A DNA stretch of 64,000 bases from an uncultured bacterium (GTDB lineage Bacteria; Bacillota_I; Bacilli_A; Acholeplasmatales; Anaeroplasmataceae): positions 1-64,000 of the forward strand of contig CASFCK010000006.1 in assembly GCA_949293265.1 (NCBI GenBank). The letters run 5' to 3'. Below are positions 1,799 through 28,345 of this stretch, one piece after another (positions within the stretch are counted from its first letter, which is position 1; each line of letters starts with the position of its first letter). Under the pieces are notes generated by a model, which was not told where the DNA came from, did no database searches, and worked only from the letters and a program-made list of their open reading frames with translations. The position numbers and the translations under genes were made by a program.

Positions 1799-3028
1799 TT
1801 AAATACCTGCTAGAGGTAAGACATATTTATCTTTTCCTAAAGGATAAATTGAATCAGTGTTGCAGATAATTGCTGAAGGACCTAACTTATAATTAGTATT
1901 ATCTAAAACTTTAAATCCTTTAACATCACTTAAATTATATCTAATTCCCATTTTACATTCTATTCTTGTAATTATTCCTTCATTTAAAATAATTAAATCT
2001 ATTTCATTTTGATTATTATCGCGATAATAATAGAATCCAGGTTCAATTCCATTATTTAAAAATGTTTTTCTTATTTCATTAATAATAAATGTTTCGACAA
2101 AACGGCCTGCAAAAATACTATTCATTAAAATTTCTGAATTATTTAAACGAGCTAAATAGCAAGCTAGTCCCGTATCATTAAAATAAATCTTCGGTCGTTT
2201 AACAATTCTTTTTGTCATACTATACTCATTATATGGCTCTAATAAATAAACTATATCACCAGCTATTAATACACTGAGCCAAGATTTAATAGTTTTCATA
2301 TCAACCTCAAGTGCTTTAGCTAAATTATCATAAACTAATTCTTCTCCAGTTTGAGAAGCTATTAATTCCATAAATCTTCTAAATGTAAAAATGTTTTTAA
2401 CATTAATAATATCTCTTACATCTCGTTCTAAATATGATTCAACATAATCAGCATAAAATTTATTAGATTCTATATTATTGCTATAAAGTTCTGGATACAT
2501 TCCTTTTACAATTAATTTAAATAAAGATGGAGAAGATAACGGATTTAAATTAGCACGTTTTTGTATTTCAATTAAATTATTCAACGAGAAAACTTGCTCT
2601 TCCCTATCTAATATTTCATTTCTTGAAAGGGGAAGAACATGTATAATACTAACTCTACCCGCTAAAGATTCTGTTACATTATTCATTAGCCTATACATTT
2701 GCGAACCAGTTAAAATAAACATGCCATAATTTTGTGTATTTTTCATTTTCTCTTTATTGACTATTTCCTCAATTACATTAAATAATTGAGGTGCTCTTTG
2801 AACCTCATCAATAATAAGTGGCCATTTATGTATTTGTAAAAATAAATCGGGGTCTTTTTGAGCTAATTCTAAATCACGTGAACTATCAAGAGAAACATAA
2901 TTAAATCCTTTATTAATATAATGGCTAGCTAATGTAGTTTTTCCAACCTGTCTTGCCCCAGTAATTAAAGTTACCGGTCTAGTTTGAATTGATTTAGCAA
3001 TTATTTTTAAAATATTTCTATTAATCAT
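1799..3028 (-). CDS. AAA_14/DUF4143 ATPase (second copy)
   Basis: A 409-residue ATPase with Walker A GARQVGKTT at residues 24-32, Walker B LIIDEVQ, a TGSQ sensor-like motif near 107 and a C-terminal DUF4143 domain ending in an NEID...ECK nuclease-like constellation. It is clearly a different subfamily from the gene at 207, sharing only the motifs. The ATG is preceded by AGGGAC at a suitable distance. The gene is monocistronic, and converges with the first ATPase across a 236-base AT-rich gap in which I see nothing else. Its specific function is unknown. Confidence 0.85.
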   Translation of the reverse strand: MINRNILKIIAKSIQTRPVTLITGARQVGKTTLASHYINKGFNYVSLDSSRDLELAQKDPDLFLQIHKWPLIIDEVQRAPQLFNVIEEIVNKEKMKNTQNYGMFILTGSQMYRLMNNVTESLAGRVSIIHVLPLSRNEILDREEQVFSLNNLIEIQKRANLNPLSSPSLFKLIVKGMYPELYSNNIESNKFYADYVESYLERDVRDIINVKNIFTFRRFMELIASQTGEELVYDNLAKALEVDMKTIKSWLSVLIAGDIVYLLEPYNEYSMTKRIVKRPKIYFNDTGLACYLARLNNSEILMNSIFAGRFVETFIINEIRKTFLNNGIEPGFYYYRDNNQNEIDLIILNEGIITRIECKMGIRYNLSDVKGFKVLDNTNYKLGPSAIICNTDSIYPLGKDKYVLPLAGI

Positions 3029-3401
3029 ATATGTCCCTGCCTTTATTTATTATAAATAAATTATATATTAGTATTTTTCAGAATTCAACTCCTAATTTGT
3101 ATAAAACAATGGTTTTAAAGAGAGAACCACATCCCTCATCTCTTTATACTAAAAGTTTTATTAAATGCCTTTAATGAACTAGTACCAATTTGCATATCTA
3201 AAGTCTCTTAATATGGCTTTTTCTTTTTTTGTATAAGGTGTTTTCTTGCTATATCTACCATAACTATTTTTTGTTGCTGTATACAATTTAATTTTCTTAA
3301 TATTTCTGATGTTGTATATGTTTATTTATCTTTAGTGCTTTTCTTAATTTTGTTGTTCTTACAAGTATTTCATTTGTTAATAAGGTAGTTATTCTTTTTT
3401 A
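3029..3401. other. intergenic region with inverted repeat and possible gene remnant
   Basis: This 373-base gap lies between the second ATPase and the AraC-GH39 gene. It holds the ATPase promoter region, an 8-bp inverted repeat (TAAAGAGA at 3116-3123 and TCTCTTTA at 3139-3146) with no adjoining T-run, and a decayed coding-like stretch described separately. The inverted repeat could be an operator; no role is assigned. Confidence 0.4.
3179..3393 (-). pseudogene. possible decayed gene fragment
   Basis: On the minus strand, two stretches read as protein-like when one frameshift near 3295-3310 is allowed. The upstream part has 31 open codons, and the downstream part reads IKLYTATKNSYGRYSKKTPY and then continues to a TAG at 3179-3181. 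There is no start codon or ribosome-binding site. The mix of charged and aromatic residues looks like real protein rather than random AT-rich translation, but the family is not recognised and chance is possible. Confidence 0.25.
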
Positions 3402-5849
3402 TTATTTAAACTTTATTTCTACAAGTTTAACTTCTAAAGGATATAAATCAATATTAAGCTTTAACTGATTATCAGTAATATCCATTATTGTTTTATAATA
3501 TTTAGGTATAGATAAATTATCTAATATTTTAACTTCTTCTTCATTTTCTAGTTCCATTGAAGACATTGTTTCATATATGTCATAACTAGATCCACTTTCT
3601 TTAGTTATACGCGATATCTTAATTATAGCTTTATTATAATTTAGATTATCAATCATAAATTGTAGCTTTCTTAATTTTCTTTCTCTAAATGGTTCATATC
3701 TTGAATGATATTGCAATGAAAAATATTCACCATCAGCAAAATAATCACTAAAATGTTCATAGTTATATACTATTAAAGTTAATTTATTTAGCCCTTTAGT
3801 TACATAATAACCATTACCTTTTTGTAAAACATTATCATCTAATTTACTTAAAAAATAATAAGCATAAAAATTAGCTTTAGGAATACCATTATAAGTAAAT
3901 AGACCATTACCACCATGAAATGTTGTGTCAGGCAATTGAGTTTCATCTAAGAAATCAGTTAATGACCAGTGAGAAAAGCTTTCTAAGCTGTCCATATTTT
4001 CTAAAACATTTTTAATGATATAACAACTTGAATATATTGTGTCATTAATAAAGTTTCTTTGTGATGATGTAACATTCCATTCCGTTAAATATATTTTATC
4101 ACCATGATAAAAATCTGGTTTTTTAATTTTATTTATAAAGTTTTGTAAATTATTAGGATCTTTATTTAATTTTTCAATCTTTTTACCAGTAATAAAGAAA
4201 TCAAAATCATTAGAATAGTAATTTACAACTAAGAAATCAGGATAAACATTATTATCTTCACAATATTTTAAAAAGTCTAAATCCCATTGATACGCAAAAC
4301 TAGCAAATGGGATTAAACCTGGTGATCCTGCTTGAAAATTTATGTTAACACTTTTAATTAAATTATATGTTTCTTTATATAAATTATAAAAATCATCATC
4401 CTTGCTAAACCCAAACGCATGCGCAGTTGAATCAGGTGCATTCCAAATCGTAATAGGCCATGATAACACTTCAATTAAGCCATATTTAGTAATTAAGTGT
4501 TCTATTAATGCTTTAATCAATTCTAACCATTTGCCTAAATCATTAGGTTCTGATATAACCTGTTTTGATTCAAATATTTGTCTTGTTAGTGTGCTTGCTA
4601 GTGCGCTTGGCATATAATCTAGGGTTAGGAATGGTTTTAATCCTAATCGTAGTAAAGTATCTATAACTTTATCTACATAAACGAAAGATATCTTTATTTC
4701 ACCCTTACTACTAACTCTATATAAATGCATATCATCATCAAATATTCCATGAAATCTAACATATTTAAAGCCGATTTTGCTAGTTCTTTCTAACATTTTT
4801 AATATATCTACCTTTAATATATCACTAGCTCTTGAAATAGTAATCATCTTTAAATATGTTTTTTTAATAACTTCCGTTTTTTCACTATAATCTATATTAT
4901 ATTCTGCAAAATCATTAATTGTTGGTGATGATTTAATTAAAGCTTCTTGTTTATTGTTTTGAAAGATTAAATCTAAATAATGTCTCTTATCAAAGTCTAA
5001 ATAAAAGTTCTTATCTTTATTTAGCTTTTTTTCTTTTTGTTTTTTAAATTCTGATGGAGTTAAATTAAAGATATTTTTAAAAGCTCTAATGTAACTTCTA
5101 TAATCCGCAAAACCAGATAAGCTTGCTACATCTTCAATTGGTAAATCCGAATTAGCTAATGCTTCTAACGATTTATTAACTCGCAAATTATCGTAATAAT
5201 TTTGAAAATTTTGATTCATATTGGCATTAAAAAAACTAGAAAAATATTGGGGTGTATAACCAAAGTGTTGACTTAACTCAGTTAAAGATAGATTATCTTT
5301 GTATTTAAATTCAATGTAATTAATAATATCTTTTATTTTTTCTAGATTTTTTTGGCTTTTTCTCTTTACTGTTTCACCTTTAACTTTATAATGATTCAAC
5401 AGTAAATAAAGCAATTGATATGATAGTGTTTTATTTAAAACATCTATATTTTCTTTAATTGTCATATTAGCTTGAATTAACCCAAATATTGTCTCTTTAA
5501 GAGTATGGAATTTACTTTTATCTTCTTCTAATGCTGAATTGCAATTAAAATACATACTTTGTATTTCATCTAAACTAAAACCAAAGTCGGTTAAATTAAC
5601 ATCAACCTCCAAAAACACGACTTCAGTTAATCCTTTTATTTCATAAATAATAAAAGGATTAATCGCAATAATGTCAGAAGCATGTAACTCTACTGCTTCA
5701 TTATCTTGATAATATGTACAATCTCCTTCTAATAAGTACATAATCTTTAGGGTTTTATGCCAGTCTCTTTCTTCACCAGCTATTTTTTGTAAACTTACCT
5801 TTAAAGGGAAATCATATGGGAAATTCAAAAGATTATATTGCATTTTCAT
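3402..5849 (-). CDS. AraC-family regulator fused to a GH39-like sugar-sensing domain
   Basis: An 815-residue protein with three parts: an N-terminal cupin-like ligand domain (about 1-140), an AraC helix-turn-helix pair (about 170-270) and a C-terminal GH39 beta-xylosidase-like domain (about 300-815). In GH39 enzymes the acid/base Glu sits in a W-N-E-P motif; here it reads W469-N-A-P-D, so that Glu is Ala471. The nucleophile-type Glu is kept in LTEWN (E590), and the family block FHGGNGLF is present near 644. The domain therefore probably binds a glycoside rather than cleaving it. The gene is divergent from an RbsABC-type importer, which it probably regulates. Its promoter places +1 at or near the ATG, suggesting leaderless translation. 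Confidence 0.85.
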   Translation of the reverse strand: MKMQYNLLNFPYDFPLKVSLQKIAGEERDWHKTLKIMYLLEGDCTYYQDNEAVELHASDIIAINPFIIYEIKGLTEVVFLEVDVNLTDFGFSLDEIQSMYFNCNSALEEDKSKFHTLKETIFGLIQANMTIKENIDVLNKTLSYQLLYLLLNHYKVKGETVKRKSQKNLEKIKDIINYIEFKYKDNLSLTELSQHFGYTPQYFSSFFNANMNQNFQNYYDNLRVNKSLEALANSDLPIEDVASLSGFADYRSYIRAFKNIFNLTPSEFKKQKEKKLNKDKNFYLDFDKRHYLDLIFQNNKQEALIKSSPTINDFAEYNIDYSEKTEVIKKTYLKMITISRASDILKVDILKMLERTSKIGFKYVRFHGIFDDDMHLYRVSSKGEIKISFVYVDKVIDTLLRLGLKPFLTLDYMPSALASTLTRQIFESKQVISEPNDLGKWLELIKALIEHLITKYGLIEVLSWPITIWNAPDSTAHAFGFSKDDDFYNLYKETYNLIKSVNINFQAGSPGLIPFASFAYQWDLDFLKYCEDNNVYPDFLVVNYYSNDFDFFITGKKIEKLNKDPNNLQNFINKIKKPDFYHGDKIYLTEWNVTSSQRNFINDTIYSSCYIIKNVLENMDSLESFSHWSLTDFLDETQLPDTTFHGGNGLFTYNGIPKANFYAYYFLSKLDDNVLQKGNGYYVTKGLNKLTLIVYNYEHFSDYFADGEYFSLQYHSRYEPFRERKLRKLQFMIDNLNYNKAIIKISRITKESGSSYDIYETMSSMELENEEEVKILDNLSIPKYYKTIMDITDNQLKLNIDLYPLEVKLVEIKFK

Positions 5850-16499: not shown

Positions 16500-16507
16500 G
16501 GCTTTTT
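16485..16507. terminator. bidirectional terminator between RyR-motif gene and nrdD
   Basis: AAAAAAGCCC/GGGCTTTTT with loop AATA; it contains the stop codon of the plus-strand gene and has T-runs on both strands. Confidence 0.85.
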
Positions 16508-18887
16508 ATTTTAGCTGTTTTATAAATTTTTCTACTTCAACTACTCCATTATATTTTGTTGTGTTTTCGCCTTTTACTACTAAAGTAGGGGCTTGCATTA
16601 TATCATATTTTTCTACTAAATCTAAATTACTTTCTGATTCTATAATTTTATAAGTTAGATTGTTTTCATCTAGTAAAGCTTTAACAATTTTACAATTAGG
16701 ACAAGTTTTAGTAGTAAATAATAATAAATCACCATCATTATTTAATATCGGTATTTGTTGTTCTATGCCATCATTATTTATTTGTTTTTTAAATTCAATA
16801 GCACCTTTTAAAATATTATCATCGAGCTTATATTCTTTTCTACCTTTAAATTCTTCTACTTTGCCATCATTCCAATTTTGAACAGGTCTATAATAACCGG
16901 TAATTCGTGACCAAACTTCAGTTTTTTTGCCACAAATAGGGCAAGTATATTGTTCACCAGTTATATAACCATGATCTTGACAAATTGAATATGTTGGTGA
17001 AATTGTATAATAAGGCAAGTGATAATTATTTGCTATTTTACGAACTAGTGTCATTGCTGATTGCCGTGATGGTAATTTTTCACCTAAGAAAGCATGAAAT
17101 ACTGTTCCTGATGTATATAATGTTTGAAGTTTATCTTCAATATCTAGAGCTTCAAAGATGTCATCTGTATATCCTACTGGTAAATGTGAACTGTTAGTAT
17201 AATAAGGAGTATGTCCATTTTCAGATGCTGTAATAATATCAGGATATTTTTCTTTATCATGTTTAGCTAAACGATAAGTTGTAGATTCAGCAGGTGTAGC
17301 TTCTAAATTATATAAATCACCATATTCTTCTTGATAAATAATTAAACGCTCACGCATATGATTTAGAACTTCAACCGCAAAATCATAAGTTTCTTTATGC
17401 GTTAAATCTTTTCTTAACCAGTTCGCATTTAAGCCAACTTCGTTCATTCCAATTAAACCAATAGTAGAAAAATGATTTTTAAAAGACCCTAGATAACGTT
17501 TAGTATATGGATATAAACCTTCATCTAGTAATTTTGTAATAACGTTTCGTTTTATCTTTAATGATCTTGCGGCTATATCCATTAATCTATCTAGCCTTTT
17601 ATAAAAGTCTTCTTTATCGTTAGCTAAATAAGCTATCCTTGGTAAATTAATAGTTACAACACCTACACTACCTGTAGATTCTCCACTACCAAAATAGCCA
17701 CCGCTCTTTTTTCTTAATTCTCTTAAATCTAATCTTAACCGACAACACATAGATCTAATATCGCTTGGTTGCATATCACTATTAACATAATTAGAAAAAT
17801 AAGGTGTACCATATTTAGCAGTCATTTCAAATAATAATTTATTATTATCCGTTTCAGACCAATCAAAATCCTTAGTTATTGAATAAGTAGGTATTGGATA
17901 TTGGAATCCTCTACCATTAGCATCCCCTTCTATCATTACTTCAATGAACGCTCTATTAATCATATCCATTTCTTTTTTACAATCTTTATATTTAAAATCC
18001 ATAGATTTGCCACCGACAATGGCATATTGTTCGGCTAAATCATTAGGAACAGTCCAATCAAGAGTAATATTAGTAAAAGGAGCTTGAGTTCCCCAACGAC
18101 TTGGAGTATTAACACCATATACAAAAGATTCAATAGCATGTTTTACTTGATCATAATTTAAATTATCTGTTTTAACAAATGGAGCTAAATAAGTATCAAA
18201 TGATGAAAAAGCTTGCGCACCTGCCCATTCATTTTGCATAATACCTAAAAAATTAACCATTTGATTGCATAAACTTGTCAAGTGCTTAGCCGGTTTAGAC
18301 GTCATTTTACCAGGAACTCCACCTAATCCTTCCATTAATAATTGTTTTAATGACCAACCAGCACAATAACCGGTTAACATAGATAAGTCATGAATATGCA
18401 TATCACCATCTTTATGGGCTTTAGCGATTTCTTCATCATATATTTCTGACAACCAATAATTAGCAGTTATTGCCCCACTATTAGATAAAATTAAACCACC
18501 AACTGAATATGTAACCGTTGAATTTTCTTTAACTCGCCAATCCGTAGCTAAGACATAGCTATCAACTAAATCTTTATAATCTAACATTGTATTTTTAACG
18601 TTTCTAACTTTTTCTCTTTGTTTACGATACAAAATATAAGCTTTAGCTACTTCCCCATAACCTGATTCAATTAATACTTGTTCAACACTATCTTGAATAT
18701 CTTCAACATGAACTAAGTCATTTTTTACTTTATTTTGGAAATTGGCTGTAACTCTAAGTGCTAATAATTCAATTATATTTTCATTATAAGCTGTTTCTTT
18801 AGCGTCAAAAGCCTTTGTAATCGCGACTTCAATTTTTTTAATATCAAAACTCGCAACCTTACCATCTCTTTTAATTACATTATACAT
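16506..18887 (-). CDS. nrdD: anaerobic (class III) ribonucleoside-triphosphate reductase with C-terminal glutaredoxin-like domain
   Basis: A 793-residue glycyl-radical enzyme that makes dNTPs anaerobically. An ATP-cone opens it (VIKRDGKVASFDIKKIEVAI). The catalytic barrel includes SGGYFGSGESTGSVGVVTIN. A C-x2-H...CPICG zinc site (Cys649, Cys652) is followed by SRITGYYRPV with the radical Gly664. Instead of ending there, about 130 further residues carry a glutaredoxin/NrdH-like fold, LLLFTTKTCPNCKIVKALL with C729-P-N-C732 and a cis-Pro-type QAPTLVV. It may supply electrons to its own active site; related NrdD proteins depend on NrdH-type redoxins. The ATG at 18887 is favoured over the upstream GTG because AGGGGTG precedes it. 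One base separates it from the end of nrdG. Confidence 0.95.
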   Translation of the reverse strand: MYNVIKRDGKVASFDIKKIEVAITKAFDAKETAYNENIIELLALRVTANFQNKVKNDLVHVEDIQDSVEQVLIESGYGEVAKAYILYRKQREKVRNVKNTMLDYKDLVDSYVLATDWRVKENSTVTYSVGGLILSNSGAITANYWLSEIYDEEIAKAHKDGDMHIHDLSMLTGYCAGWSLKQLLMEGLGGVPGKMTSKPAKHLTSLCNQMVNFLGIMQNEWAGAQAFSSFDTYLAPFVKTDNLNYDQVKHAIESFVYGVNTPSRWGTQAPFTNITLDWTVPNDLAEQYAIVGGKSMDFKYKDCKKEMDMINRAFIEVMIEGDANGRGFQYPIPTYSITKDFDWSETDNNKLLFEMTAKYGTPYFSNYVNSDMQPSDIRSMCCRLRLDLRELRKKSGGYFGSGESTGSVGVVTINLPRIAYLANDKEDFYKRLDRLMDIAARSLKIKRNVITKLLDEGLYPYTKRYLGSFKNHFSTIGLIGMNEVGLNANWLRKDLTHKETYDFAVEVLNHMRERLIIYQEEYGDLYNLEATPAESTTYRLAKHDKEKYPDIITASENGHTPYYTNSSHLPVGYTDDIFEALDIEDKLQTLYTSGTVFHAFLGEKLPSRQSAMTLVRKIANNYHLPYYTISPTYSICQDHGYITGEQYTCPICGKKTEVWSRITGYYRPVQNWNDGKVEEFKGRKEYKLDDNILKGAIEFKKQINNDGIEQQIPILNNDGDLLLFTTKTCPNCKIVKALLDENNLTYKIIESESNLDLVEKYDIMQAPTLVVKGENTTKYNGVVEVEKFIKQLK

Positions 18888-18888
18888 T

Positions 18889-20022
18889 TTACACACCCCT
18901 TATACTTACATTTTTAATATTTTTTTCTAATTCTTTTTTATACTTTTCGAGCGTTTCTAAAGTATGACTATGCAAGGTTTTATCAATTACATTTTCACCA
19001 TTTCTAAAACTTTGTAAATAATAATTTTTAGCCCCATTAAGCCATAATCCTATTTCTTTAATATCGTTTAAATCATGATATTCTTTAACAATTGTAGTTC
19101 TAAATTCATAATCTACAATTCCCCTTTTCAAAAGATCTACACTTTTATAAATATTAGTCAAGTCAATATTTTTAACACCACATGTCAGACCATATTTATT
19201 AGGTGAATTTTTAATATCCATAGCTACATAATCAACTAATTTTAAATCGACTATCTTTTTTAATTCCTCATAAAGAAAACCATTAGTATCTAATTTAACT
19301 AATAAACCTAAATTCTTAACCTTAGTAATAAAGGAAATAAGCCCTCTATGTAATAATGGCTCTCCCCCACTTATGCATACACCATCTAAAATGCTTTTTC
19401 TTTTAGTTAAATATTCTAATATATCTGCTTCCTTAATTTCTTTAATATTTTCATCTAAATAAACTAAATCACTATTATGACAAAAAGGACAACAAAAATT
19501 ACATCCCCCTGTAAATATTGTGGCTGCTAATTTAGATGGGTAATCTAATAGTGTCGATTTTTGTAAACCAAAAAATTTAATTTCTTCTTCTTGATTAAAA
19601 TTATATTTTCTAGCCTTATTAGCTAGTTTAGCTTGAATATTTAAATAAACTTCAAGCTCATCACTAGAAACATCACTAGTTAAATATTCCCACCAATCTC
19701 TAATCACCATATATAAGCGTGACATAATTTGTTTGGCTTTTTCGGTTAAATATAATAATTTAGCTCTTTTATCAAAACTTTCTTCTTCTTTTACATATCC
19801 TTTTTCTTCTAATTTTTGAATGCCTTTAGTAACTGTACCTTTATCATAACTACAAATATTAGCTATATCTACTAAAGATATACCTTCTTTTTGCGATAAA
19901 ACGATTAAAAATGTTACTTGTCCAGCTGAAATATCTAGATCAGTTAAAGCTAAATCATAATATTTATGCATCGAGCGGTACAAAATAGAAAAGTCTAAGG
20001 ATCTATATTTATTATAATCCAT
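18889..20022 (-). CDS. nrdG: MarR regulator fused to NrdD-activating radical-SAM enzyme
   Basis: A 377-residue two-domain protein. Residues about 1-140 form a MarR-type winged helix (DKGTVTKGIQKLEEKGYVK recognition region, then DKRAKLLYLTEKA wing). From about 150 the NrdG/PflA-like activase begins, with LDYPSKLAATIFTGGC and the 4Fe-4S/SAM motif C174-x3-C178-x2-C181 and GGEP at 219-222. It generates the glycyl radical on NrdD using SAM, while the N-terminal domain probably binds DNA. ATG 20022 is preferred over ATG 20037 because AAGGTG lies just before it. The palindrome covering the -35 suggests autoregulation. Single-domain NrdG is about 170-230 residues, so the extra domain accounts for the length. 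Confidence 0.9.
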   Translation of the reverse strand: MDYNKYRSLDFSILYRSMHKYYDLALTDLDISAGQVTFLIVLSQKEGISLVDIANICSYDKGTVTKGIQKLEEKGYVKEEESFDKRAKLLYLTEKAKQIMSRLYMVIRDWWEYLTSDVSSDELEVYLNIQAKLANKARKYNFNQEEEIKFFGLQKSTLLDYPSKLAATIFTGGCNFCCPFCHNSDLVYLDENIKEIKEADILEYLTKRKSILDGVCISGGEPLLHRGLISFITKVKNLGLLVKLDTNGFLYEELKKIVDLKLVDYVAMDIKNSPNKYGLTCGVKNIDLTNIYKSVDLLKRGIVDYEFRTTIVKEYHDLNDIKEIGLWLNGAKNYYLQSFRNGENVIDKTLHSHTLETLEKYKKELEKNIKNVSIRGV

Positions 20023-20044
20023 AACTTTCACCTTCATTTGTTAT

Positions 20045-20073
20045 ATTATCTTACTATTTAGTTGAATATTCAA
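20045..20073 (-). promoter_or_regulatory. promoter of the nrdG-nrdD operon
   Basis: On the minus strand, -35 TTGAAT (20068-20073), 17-bp spacer, -10 GATAAT (20045-20050). The -35 lies within the palindrome at 20059-20076. Confidence 0.65.
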
Positions 20074-20076
20074 CTA
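20059..20076. promoter_or_regulatory. perfect 18-bp palindrome, candidate MarR operator
   Basis: TAGTTGAATATTCAACTA is a perfect palindrome covering the -35 of the nrdG-nrdD promoter. MarR dimers typically bind 16-20-bp palindromes that begin TAGTTG or similar, and the first gene encodes a MarR domain. Confidence 0.75.
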
Positions 20077-20081
20077 TTTTT

Positions 20082-20104
20082 TATATGAAAGTAATTTTCA
20101 TATA
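20082..20104. promoter_or_regulatory. second inverted repeat upstream of the nrdG promoter
   Basis: TATATGAAA and TTTCATATA are separated by 5 bases, centred about 25 bp upstream of the first palindrome. It may be a second operator with a different sequence; the regulator is unknown. Confidence 0.5.
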
Positions 20105-20142
20105 AAACATTTAATTATAACAATACCTAAAATTAAAAAAAC

Positions 20143-20229
20143 CTCCAAAGTAGACTTTCATAATTTTGGAGTTCACAAATCCCTTAAGGAATTATTATTC
20201 TTTAATTATTTTATTTGTCTACTTTGGAG
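20143..20229. mobile_element. MITE-like element with 13-bp terminal inverted repeats
   Basis: CTCCAAAGTAGAC (20143-20155) and GTCTACTTTGGAG (20217-20229) are perfect inverted repeats bounding an 87-bp AT-rich interior without a gene. The termini resemble those of IS3/IS150-group elements, so a non-autonomous derivative is plausible. No clear target duplication is visible. As a transcribed hairpin it could also act as the 3' structure of the pepO mRNA. Confidence 0.4.
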
Positions 20230-28242: not shown

Positions 28243-28260
28243 ATAACCTCATTAAAAAAA

Positions 28261-28338
28261 CCTAATCACAATACCACTTAACTTATGGCTGCTACCTCTC
28301 GGTCCTGACCAGGTTCGCTAAGTAATACTTGATTAGGG
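28261..28338 (-). ncRNA. ffs: small bacterial signal recognition particle RNA
   Basis: The minus-strand RNA of about 78 nt contains the SRP core GGTCAGGACCGAGAGGTAGC and the following AGCC, the Ffh-binding region capped by a GAGA tetraloop. Its ends pair (CCTAATC with GATTAGG) and the 3' end runs into a T-rich tract, giving an intrinsic terminator. A promoter lies directly upstream. It is the short form, without an Alu domain. Confidence 0.95.
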
Positions 28339-28345
28339 TGAAAAA

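Follow-up and report, generated by a model that had tools for sequence, protein, structure and literature searches.

How is an anaerobic ribonucleotide reductase (RNR) controlled when the enzyme that arms it appears to carry its own DNA-binding domain? An operon in the window (the whole 64,000-nucleotide stretch of DNA analyzed here) raises this question: an NrdG-type activase gene precedes nrdD, and a palindrome lies at the promoter. The original prediction was that the activase bears a MarR domain, binds the palindrome, and sets its own transcription, possibly by sensing oxygen or S-adenosylmethionine (SAM). The protein-coding features are as follows.

18889–20022, minus strand: MarR-NrdG2 fusion coding sequence, 377 amino acids from the likely ATG at 20022
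18889–20037, minus strand: longest frame of the fusion, 382 amino acids from an earlier ATG at 20037, uninterrupted
20029–20034, minus strand: ribosome-binding site AAGGTG, read directly from the sequence, with the ATG 6 nt downstream
19597–20004, minus strand: MarR domain, helices 1 to 6 (residues 7–142 of 377), winged helix and both dimerization helices
19573–19596, minus strand: short flexible linker from MarR to activase (residues 143–150)
18892–19572, minus strand: NrdG2 radical-SAM activase domain (TIGR02495; structural match to 3cb8)
19480–19503, minus strand: CX3CX2C motif (C174, C178, C181), predicted 4Fe-4S ligand
16506–18887, minus strand: nrdD, with an ATP-cone (PF03477), an NRDD barrel (PF13597, 643.4 bits), and a C-terminal glutaredoxin-like domain (PF00462, CPNC)

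The internal ATG at 20022 is the likelier start of the fusion because AAGGTG lies upstream and homologues begin there. In the 382-residue frame, the Pfam domains above cut-off are of MarR type (MarR/MarR_2, residues 35–91) and radical-SAM type (Radical_SAM, residues 174–309). The MarR half scores 30.4 bits against PF01047 (cut-off, 24.6), and NCBIfam identifies the activase half as NrdG2 (TIGR02495; 192.5 bits; cut-off, 131.15). Pfam, NCBIfam, and an AlphaFold2 model thus all place a catalytic and a DNA-binding-type domain in one chain, and the prediction of an activase carrying a MarR domain is borne out by both domain libraries and the single 382-residue frame. The model (mean pLDDT, 87.1; pTM, 0.65; 34-row alignment) has all six MarR helices and a full radical-SAM barrel, joined by a badly ordered linker in which residues 143–145 have a pLDDT of <50; the linker is also the least conserved part of the protein (mean pairwise identity, 0.26). 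The MarR half is conserved almost as well as the activase half (0.49 versus 0.57). Its best structural match by VIA-align is SlyA (1lj9; Z = 20.1, 1.4 Å over 143 residues), and that of the activase half is pyruvate formate-lyase activase (3cb8; Z = 23.7, 2.5 Å over 222 residues).

Invariant in all 34 fusions of alignment A2 are DKG at residues 60–62, D84, R86, the three cluster cysteines, and GGEP. As modeled, the MarR fold is complete, with its predicted DNA-contact motifs intact. No cysteine in the MarR half is invariant among these 34 fusions; position 17 is Cys in 20 of the 34 and Ser in the window, and we rejected thiol redox sensing by this half. The likely nrdD ATG, at 18887, is one base past the fusion stop codon, and this shared operon supports a predicted role for the fusion in glycyl-radical activation of NrdD. 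The NrdD of the window bears its own C-terminal glutaredoxin-like domain; for comparison, a more distant relative, G021, has an unfused nrdG2-nrdD operon followed by a thioredoxin-reductase-like gene (284.5 bits, below cut-off), hinting at reduction driven by a redoxin rather than by formate.

The window further holds the following promoter elements.

20059–20076, no strand assigned: predicted operator palindrome TAGTTGAATATTCAACTA, perfect, 18 bp
20068–20073, minus strand: −35 hexamer TTGAAT, within the left half of the operator and 17 nt from GATAAT
20045–20050, minus strand: −10 hexamer GATAAT
20079–20107, no strand assigned: second dyad TTTTATATGAAAGTAATTTTCATATAAAA, near-perfect, 29 bp, just upstream of the operator and promoter

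Since TTGAAT (20073–20068) lies 17 nt before GATAAT (20050–20045), the palindrome spans the −35 and reaches into the spacer; the claim of a perfect 18-bp palindrome over the −35 of its own operon therefore holds. The sequence TAGTTGAATATTCAACTA occurs exactly once in the window (shuffled sequences gave 0.18 matches at ≤3 mismatches), and its 16-bp core has one exact copy in the 1.59-Mb genome, the next best sites having 2 mismatches. We considered a wide regulon in this genome: 16-mers with ≤3 mismatches number 57, versus 24 for the reversed pattern, but there is no second near-exact site. The second dyad was likewise rejected as a second operator. A dyad like it adjoins the operator in G006, and partly in G002; it is kept in near relatives only, not family-wide. 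Some Erysipelotrichaceae fusion promoters have two true operator copies ∼32 bp apart. Between pepO and the operon lies a 13-bp inverted repeat, CTCCAAAGTAGAC/GTCTACTTTGGAG, whose arms enclose a long loop (20143–20229); a T run follows on the minus strand, making it terminator-like, and it has no Rfam match at gathering score.

To what extent is the palindrome retained where the fusion is retained? Our genus survey searched 60 genomes (the window genome and 59 relatives). The full fusion is present in the window genome and 5 of the 7 other genomes of its genus, and in none of 52 more distant genomes; in one of the latter, G021, NrdG2 is unfused. All five full-length fusions from the same genus have AGTTGAATRTTCAACT upstream. 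These proteins are only 56–69% identical, the flanking DNA has diverged, and the upstream genes mostly differ; that the palindrome is kept nonetheless supports self-regulation. Six of the seven other genus genomes have exactly one site matching the 18-mer with ≤1 mismatch. The seventh, G005, has no such site, and neither the fusion nor a glutaredoxin-type nrdD. In G006, the exact operator (L034, G006:C29:102-119) is kept next to pepO and is followed by unrelated DNA and then the contig end; that assembly contains neither the fusion nor any NRDD match.

A scan of named genomes extended the comparison to at least 80 loci, comprising at least 34 near-full-length fusions and at least 46 unfused clostridial NrdG2 loci. 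The fusions listed come from Acholeplasmatales metagenome-assembled genomes (MAGs), Erysipelotrichaceae, Solobacterium, Kandleria, Holdemania, and Dielma; cultured carriers include Holdemania filiformis, Kandleria vitulina, and Dielma fastidiosa. Among the matches listed, the motif AGTTGRNNNNYCAACT lies with ≤1 mismatch upstream of 31 of 33 fusions (L088, which has no upstream sequence, was omitted), and the remaining two have 2 mismatches; several of the genomes counted are closely related, so such counts are not independent events. Upstream of unfused nrdG2, it was found in 0 of 46 matches listed, even at 2 mismatches, and shuffled upstream regions of the listed fusions gave a mean of 0.06 of 33 (maximum, 1). 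The R, Y, and N letters of the half-sites in AGTTGRNNNNYCAACT were relaxed after inspection of the sequences; in the same relaxed form it was applied to controls and shuffles. The footprint, at 5 of 5 in the genus and 31 of 33 versus 0 of 46 among the listed fused and unfused genes, gives the predicted self-regulation good support, and we regard the palindrome, conserved at the fusion's promoter in many gut bacteria, as the operator on this comparative evidence.

A class-wide search matched 108 of 395 genomes; 22 matches, including that in the window genome, cover the MarR part and fall in three families. Of 13 fusions new from this search, 8 have the operator (≤1 mismatch) and 5 do not. The expectation that homologous fusions share an upstream palindrome is thus upheld widely but not throughout: the own promoters of five divergent fusions (L171, L173, L174, L184, and L185) lack it, L171 having a symmetric variant at 3 mismatches that we spotted post hoc; in the genomes of all five, it is the true nrdD promoter that carries the site. 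Whole-locus scans of 11 unfused NrdG2 genes from the class gave no exact site and two 1-mismatch matches. In 20 of 35 fusion promoters, the TTG hexamer of the operator is followed at a spacing of 16–18 nt by a −10 that matches TATAAT at ≥5 of 6 positions; promoters of the Holdemania, Kandleria, and Dielma type have the operator ∼15 nt before the start codon. Either placement, over the −35 and spacer or near the start codon, would suit a repressor.

Within the family of the window, the fusion occurs only in this genus among the genomes searched, and the NrdG2 branch of the genus falls among Erysipelotrichaceae fusions in our tree. Together, these observations suggest that the operon was transferred along with its operator. 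A single origin of the fusion is possible on this tree, which requires 3 label changes; one group of 48 (support, 97/77) contains 47 of the 49 fused rows and one long-branched unfused row, and L184 and L185 sit on a very long branch.

What else makes or controls deoxyribonucleotides in these genomes? Besides the operon in the window, the window genome (1.59 Mb, 97% complete) encodes a conventional nrdD-nrdG1 pair (contig 14) and, on contig 8, a third NrdD; PF02867, the class I/II large subunit, gave no match in this genome. The third NrdD, which lacks the ATP-cone, and its counterpart in G002 (L230, G000:C8; L231, G002:C10) are accompanied by their own NrdG and a thymidylate-kinase-like gene, and each locus resembles an RNR cassette of mobile or phage type. 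Elsewhere, a 908-residue ORF (L070, positions 2874–5600, in G037) joins NrdD to NrdG1 in one chain. The window also encodes a bacterial small SRP RNA (RF00169, 54.7 bits, 28255–28340). NrdR (TIGR00244) was not found over cut-off in any of the 60 surveyed genomes, nor in any of 34 fusion genomes from the matches listed; of 14 control genomes, the same search recovers it from 9. Seven of 30 Erysipelotrichaceae-type fusion genomes (G066, G068, G070, G071, G077, G079, and G082) have a single NRDD match and no PF02867, and G067 and G069 are likewise single-RNR genomes if a second, partial NRDD match (≤29.1 bits) is disregarded; since most are MAGs, a missing match does not prove that the gene is missing. 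G066 and G068 have no NrdG-like match other than the fusion.

The original prediction was confined to the fusion's own operon and overlooked a second RNR operon, located elsewhere in the genome, on which the regulator often seems to act. Scored against AGTTG-N6-CAACT, 27 second nrdD promoters of fusion genomes, several of them from close relatives, gave 16 exact sites, 17 at ≤1 mismatch, and 19 at ≤2; dinucleotide shuffles gave a mean of 0.20 (maximum, 2). Where the promoter is readable, the site lies over the −35 and spacer or just past the −10. The row for G251 in this comparison was in the wrong orientation. Eight second nrdD promoters have no site: G000 (the window genome, contig 14), G002, G003, G004, G007, G084, G085, and G087. 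Outside the 27 are fragmentary second NRDD matches (G073, G074, G075, part of G085, G090, and G092) and two third NrdDs without an ATP-cone, in G000 and G002. The stretches around these two third NrdDs have no site, that on contig 8 of the window genome having none at ≤1 mismatch. Since the second nrdD on contig 14 lacks a site, the system of the window looks purely self-regulatory, as do those of the other seven genomes without one.

Five genomes provide a natural experiment that parts regulation from catalysis. In G105, G322, G176, G154, and G244, the NrdD adjoining the fusion scores only 91–155 bits, and each genome has a second, full NrdD (616–664 bits) plus an NrdG1 over cut-off. The weak NrdDs (501–568 residues) retain the ATP-cone (66–79 bits in the four scanned); by alignment, they lack the glutaredoxin domain as well as two catalytic elements, the cysteine loop and the glycyl-radical end. 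In all five genomes, the operator is found at the promoter of the true nrdD(-nrdG1) (AGTTGAAAAGTCAACT, AGTTGCGTACGCAACT, AGTTGCATACGCAACT, and AGTTGGAAATCCAACT, the last twice) and not at the fusion's own promoter; no k-mers were common to the fusion and true nrdD promoters of these genomes, the operator being on the nrdD side only. Selection keeps the dead NrdDs, as their low Ka/Ks shows in the two genome pairs compared: 0.115 for G154/G244 and 0.072 for G322/G176, the latter a rough value since Ks is >1 (G105 has no close pair). Over the ATP-cone the values are 0.040 and 0.060, respectively, and for the adjoining fusions 0.079 and 0.075. In L184 and L185 (of G244 and G154), the activase half has also lost CX3CX2C, with one of three cysteines left, and the two halves of the fusion are both under purifying selection (Ka/Ks, 0.07 and 0.08). 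Full NrdD persists in G263 and G379, sisters of G105, and in G391, from the genus of G322 and G176, which argues that NrdD catalysis was lost at least twice. The five genomes represent about three lineages; catalysis was lost from the NrdD of the pair in at least two lineages, probably three, and the cluster ligands in one.

Considering the domain anatomy, the conserved operator, the promoter geometry, the operators at second nrdD genes, and the selection on dead copies, all of which can be read in the sequences themselves, we think it probable that the fusion is a bifunctional activase-repressor of its own operon and, across the family, often of a second nrdD-nrdG1 operon too, in the manner of NrdR. 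The C-terminal half would activate, by radical-SAM chemistry, the class III RNR encoded downstream with its fused glutaredoxin domain, and the N-terminal half would be an entire MarR repressor recognizing AGTTG-N6-CAACT. Within the window, the fusion would bind one site over the −35 and spacer of the nrdG2-nrdD promoter and repress its own operon; family-wide, the same regulator would often also control the second, conventional nrdD-nrdG1 operon. The result would be an RNR-specific repressor in bacteria where NrdR is undetected. We infer both the binding of the operator sites and the repression from this comparative pattern.

As to the signal, the likeliest route to the MarR half runs through NrdD, the partner of the activase half: when NrdD binds, or when its ATP-cone changes nucleotide state, the hold of the MarR half on DNA would weaken or strengthen. 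We prefer such a signal because the MarR domain, the activase-like half, and the ATP-cone all survive in the decayed lineages; that NrdD is what carries it to the MarR half is a tentative proposal, at less than even confidence. In RNRs as in NrdR, the ATP-cone is a binding site for ATP and dATP (PMC11226230, in excerpt). A fuller version, also a little short of an even chance, is that a class III RNR and its activase became a transcription factor: MarR-NrdG and NrdD together would sense nucleotides through the ATP-cone, repress class III RNR operons, and replace NrdR, with the dead pairs serving as dedicated trans-acting regulators of the true RNR.

The sensing mechanism suggested originally, in which the cluster or bound SAM alters the affinity of the MarR half for DNA and the operon follows oxygen, agrees with the oxygen sensitivity of class III RNRs and with the presence of CX3CX2C in every fusion of A2. 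We consider it unlikely: L184 and L185 lack the cluster cysteines with both halves still selected, and the MarR half has no invariant cysteine of its own. Furthermore, the operon is the only RNR found in several Erysipelotrichaceae MAGs, so that switching by oxygen would be of little use there.

Plain concentration feedback, a signal-free self-repression that holds NrdG and NrdD at a set level, agrees with what is seen in the genus of the window, with its single operator per genome and a regulator that is the first gene of the operon it would repress. Operators at second nrdD operons and a dead NrdD that retains its ATP-cone point to something beyond such feedback, and we rate it as rather unlikely. 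No better are the prospects of a third reading, that a small ligand is sensed in the MarR pocket and the activase is fused for co-expression only. Small ligands are the effectors of most studied MarR repressors, and the nearest standalone MarR found (L186), which has GTTG-N6-CAAC sites, precedes what we take from its sequence to be a MATE-type transporter. The fusion is, however, kept with nrdD in every locus read downstream, even after catalysis was lost, and this counts against a pocket ligand because ligand sensing alone would not need it.

Could the palindromes be bound by something other than the fusion, such as a CRP-like protein or a standalone MarR? Similar GTTG..CAAC sites occur at nrdD in the fusion-free relatives G031 (0 mismatches), G034 (1), and G021 (2), so the letters of the site alone do not name its binder; the fusion genome G093 also has a similar nrdD site (2 mismatches). 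In all four genomes, a divergent gene encodes Crp-type helix-turn-helix and cNMP-binding domains, and a CRP-like protein may bind the look-alike site there. At L224, L225, L226, and L214, nrdD and a divergent CRP-family gene flank a site of the form TGTTG..CAACA or similar to AGTTGC..GCAACT; class III RNRs in relatives may have a regulator of this second type. As an explanation for the palindromes at large, another binder is improbable: the site tracks the fusion among the matches listed, as counted above, and the stretches read upstream of the other site-bearing second nrdD genes contain no CRP-like or MarR gene. AT-rich palindromes are frequent in the region, yet a chance repeat is ruled out, to near certainty, by the footprint, the unfused controls, the shuffles, and the second nrdD promoters.

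An activase-repressor would not be the first enzyme of its kind. Trigger enzymes are enzyme-repressors; E. coli PutA, for example, represses its own gene and the neighboring putP (PMC8249747, in excerpt). Like PutA, BirA, NadR, and PepA of E. coli, the fusion combines a metabolic enzyme and a transcription factor in one protein; unlike them, it is a radical-SAM activase with a MarR DNA-binding domain, and its substrate is a protein from the same operon. The retained dead NrdD suggests that its DNA binding may answer to the substrate or partner of the enzyme.

The likeness to NrdR lies in putative RNR-specific control, in operators over RNR promoters, and, in the derived lineages, in an ATP-cone protein encoded beside a DNA-binding protein. 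NrdR itself has a zinc ribbon and an ATP-cone in one protein and uses paired NrdR boxes, neither of which applies to the fusion: it has a MarR fold and a single 16- to 18-bp palindrome, and the ATP-cone is on a separate NrdD-type protein. It resembles NrdG2 (TIGR02495) in its C-terminal half, which is over the curated cut-off with CX3CX2C intact, and differs from unfused NrdG2 in its extra N-terminal MarR domain and in the operator, absent from the unfused genes listed. MarR, SlyA, MepR, and OhrR are MarR-family self-repressors; like them, the fusion has the complete winged-helix dimer fold, and its promoter bears a palindromic operator. Unlike them, it is fused to a catalytic domain and apparently controls RNR genes. 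The radical SAM mobile pair MarR regulator (TIGR04472) also has a radical SAM protein as its partner, but the fusion scores only 33.7 bits against it (cut-off, 240), and that system, going by the model name, consists of separate genes.

Among the open-license PubMed Central papers that our searches listed, none describes a MarR-NrdG fusion in its title or opening abstract. The term "MarR" is absent from the NrdR papers PMC12051234 and PMC12176259 by text search, and the excerpted text of PMC4390871 mentions fused class III enzymes for some unicellular eukaryotes only. NrdR is described as a near-universal bacterial RNR repressor (PMC9110341 and PMC12051234, both in excerpt).

For Erysipelotrichaceae and their relatives, the fusion and its palindrome provide a named candidate RNR regulator and operator for setting dNTP supply in bacteria without NrdR. 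The fusion would link the enzyme that arms the RNR to the transcription of its own gene, and the decayed copies argue that an RNR-like protein can persist for signaling alone. If the nucleotide-sensing reading is true, control of RNR based on an ATP-cone would have arisen independently in these bacteria.
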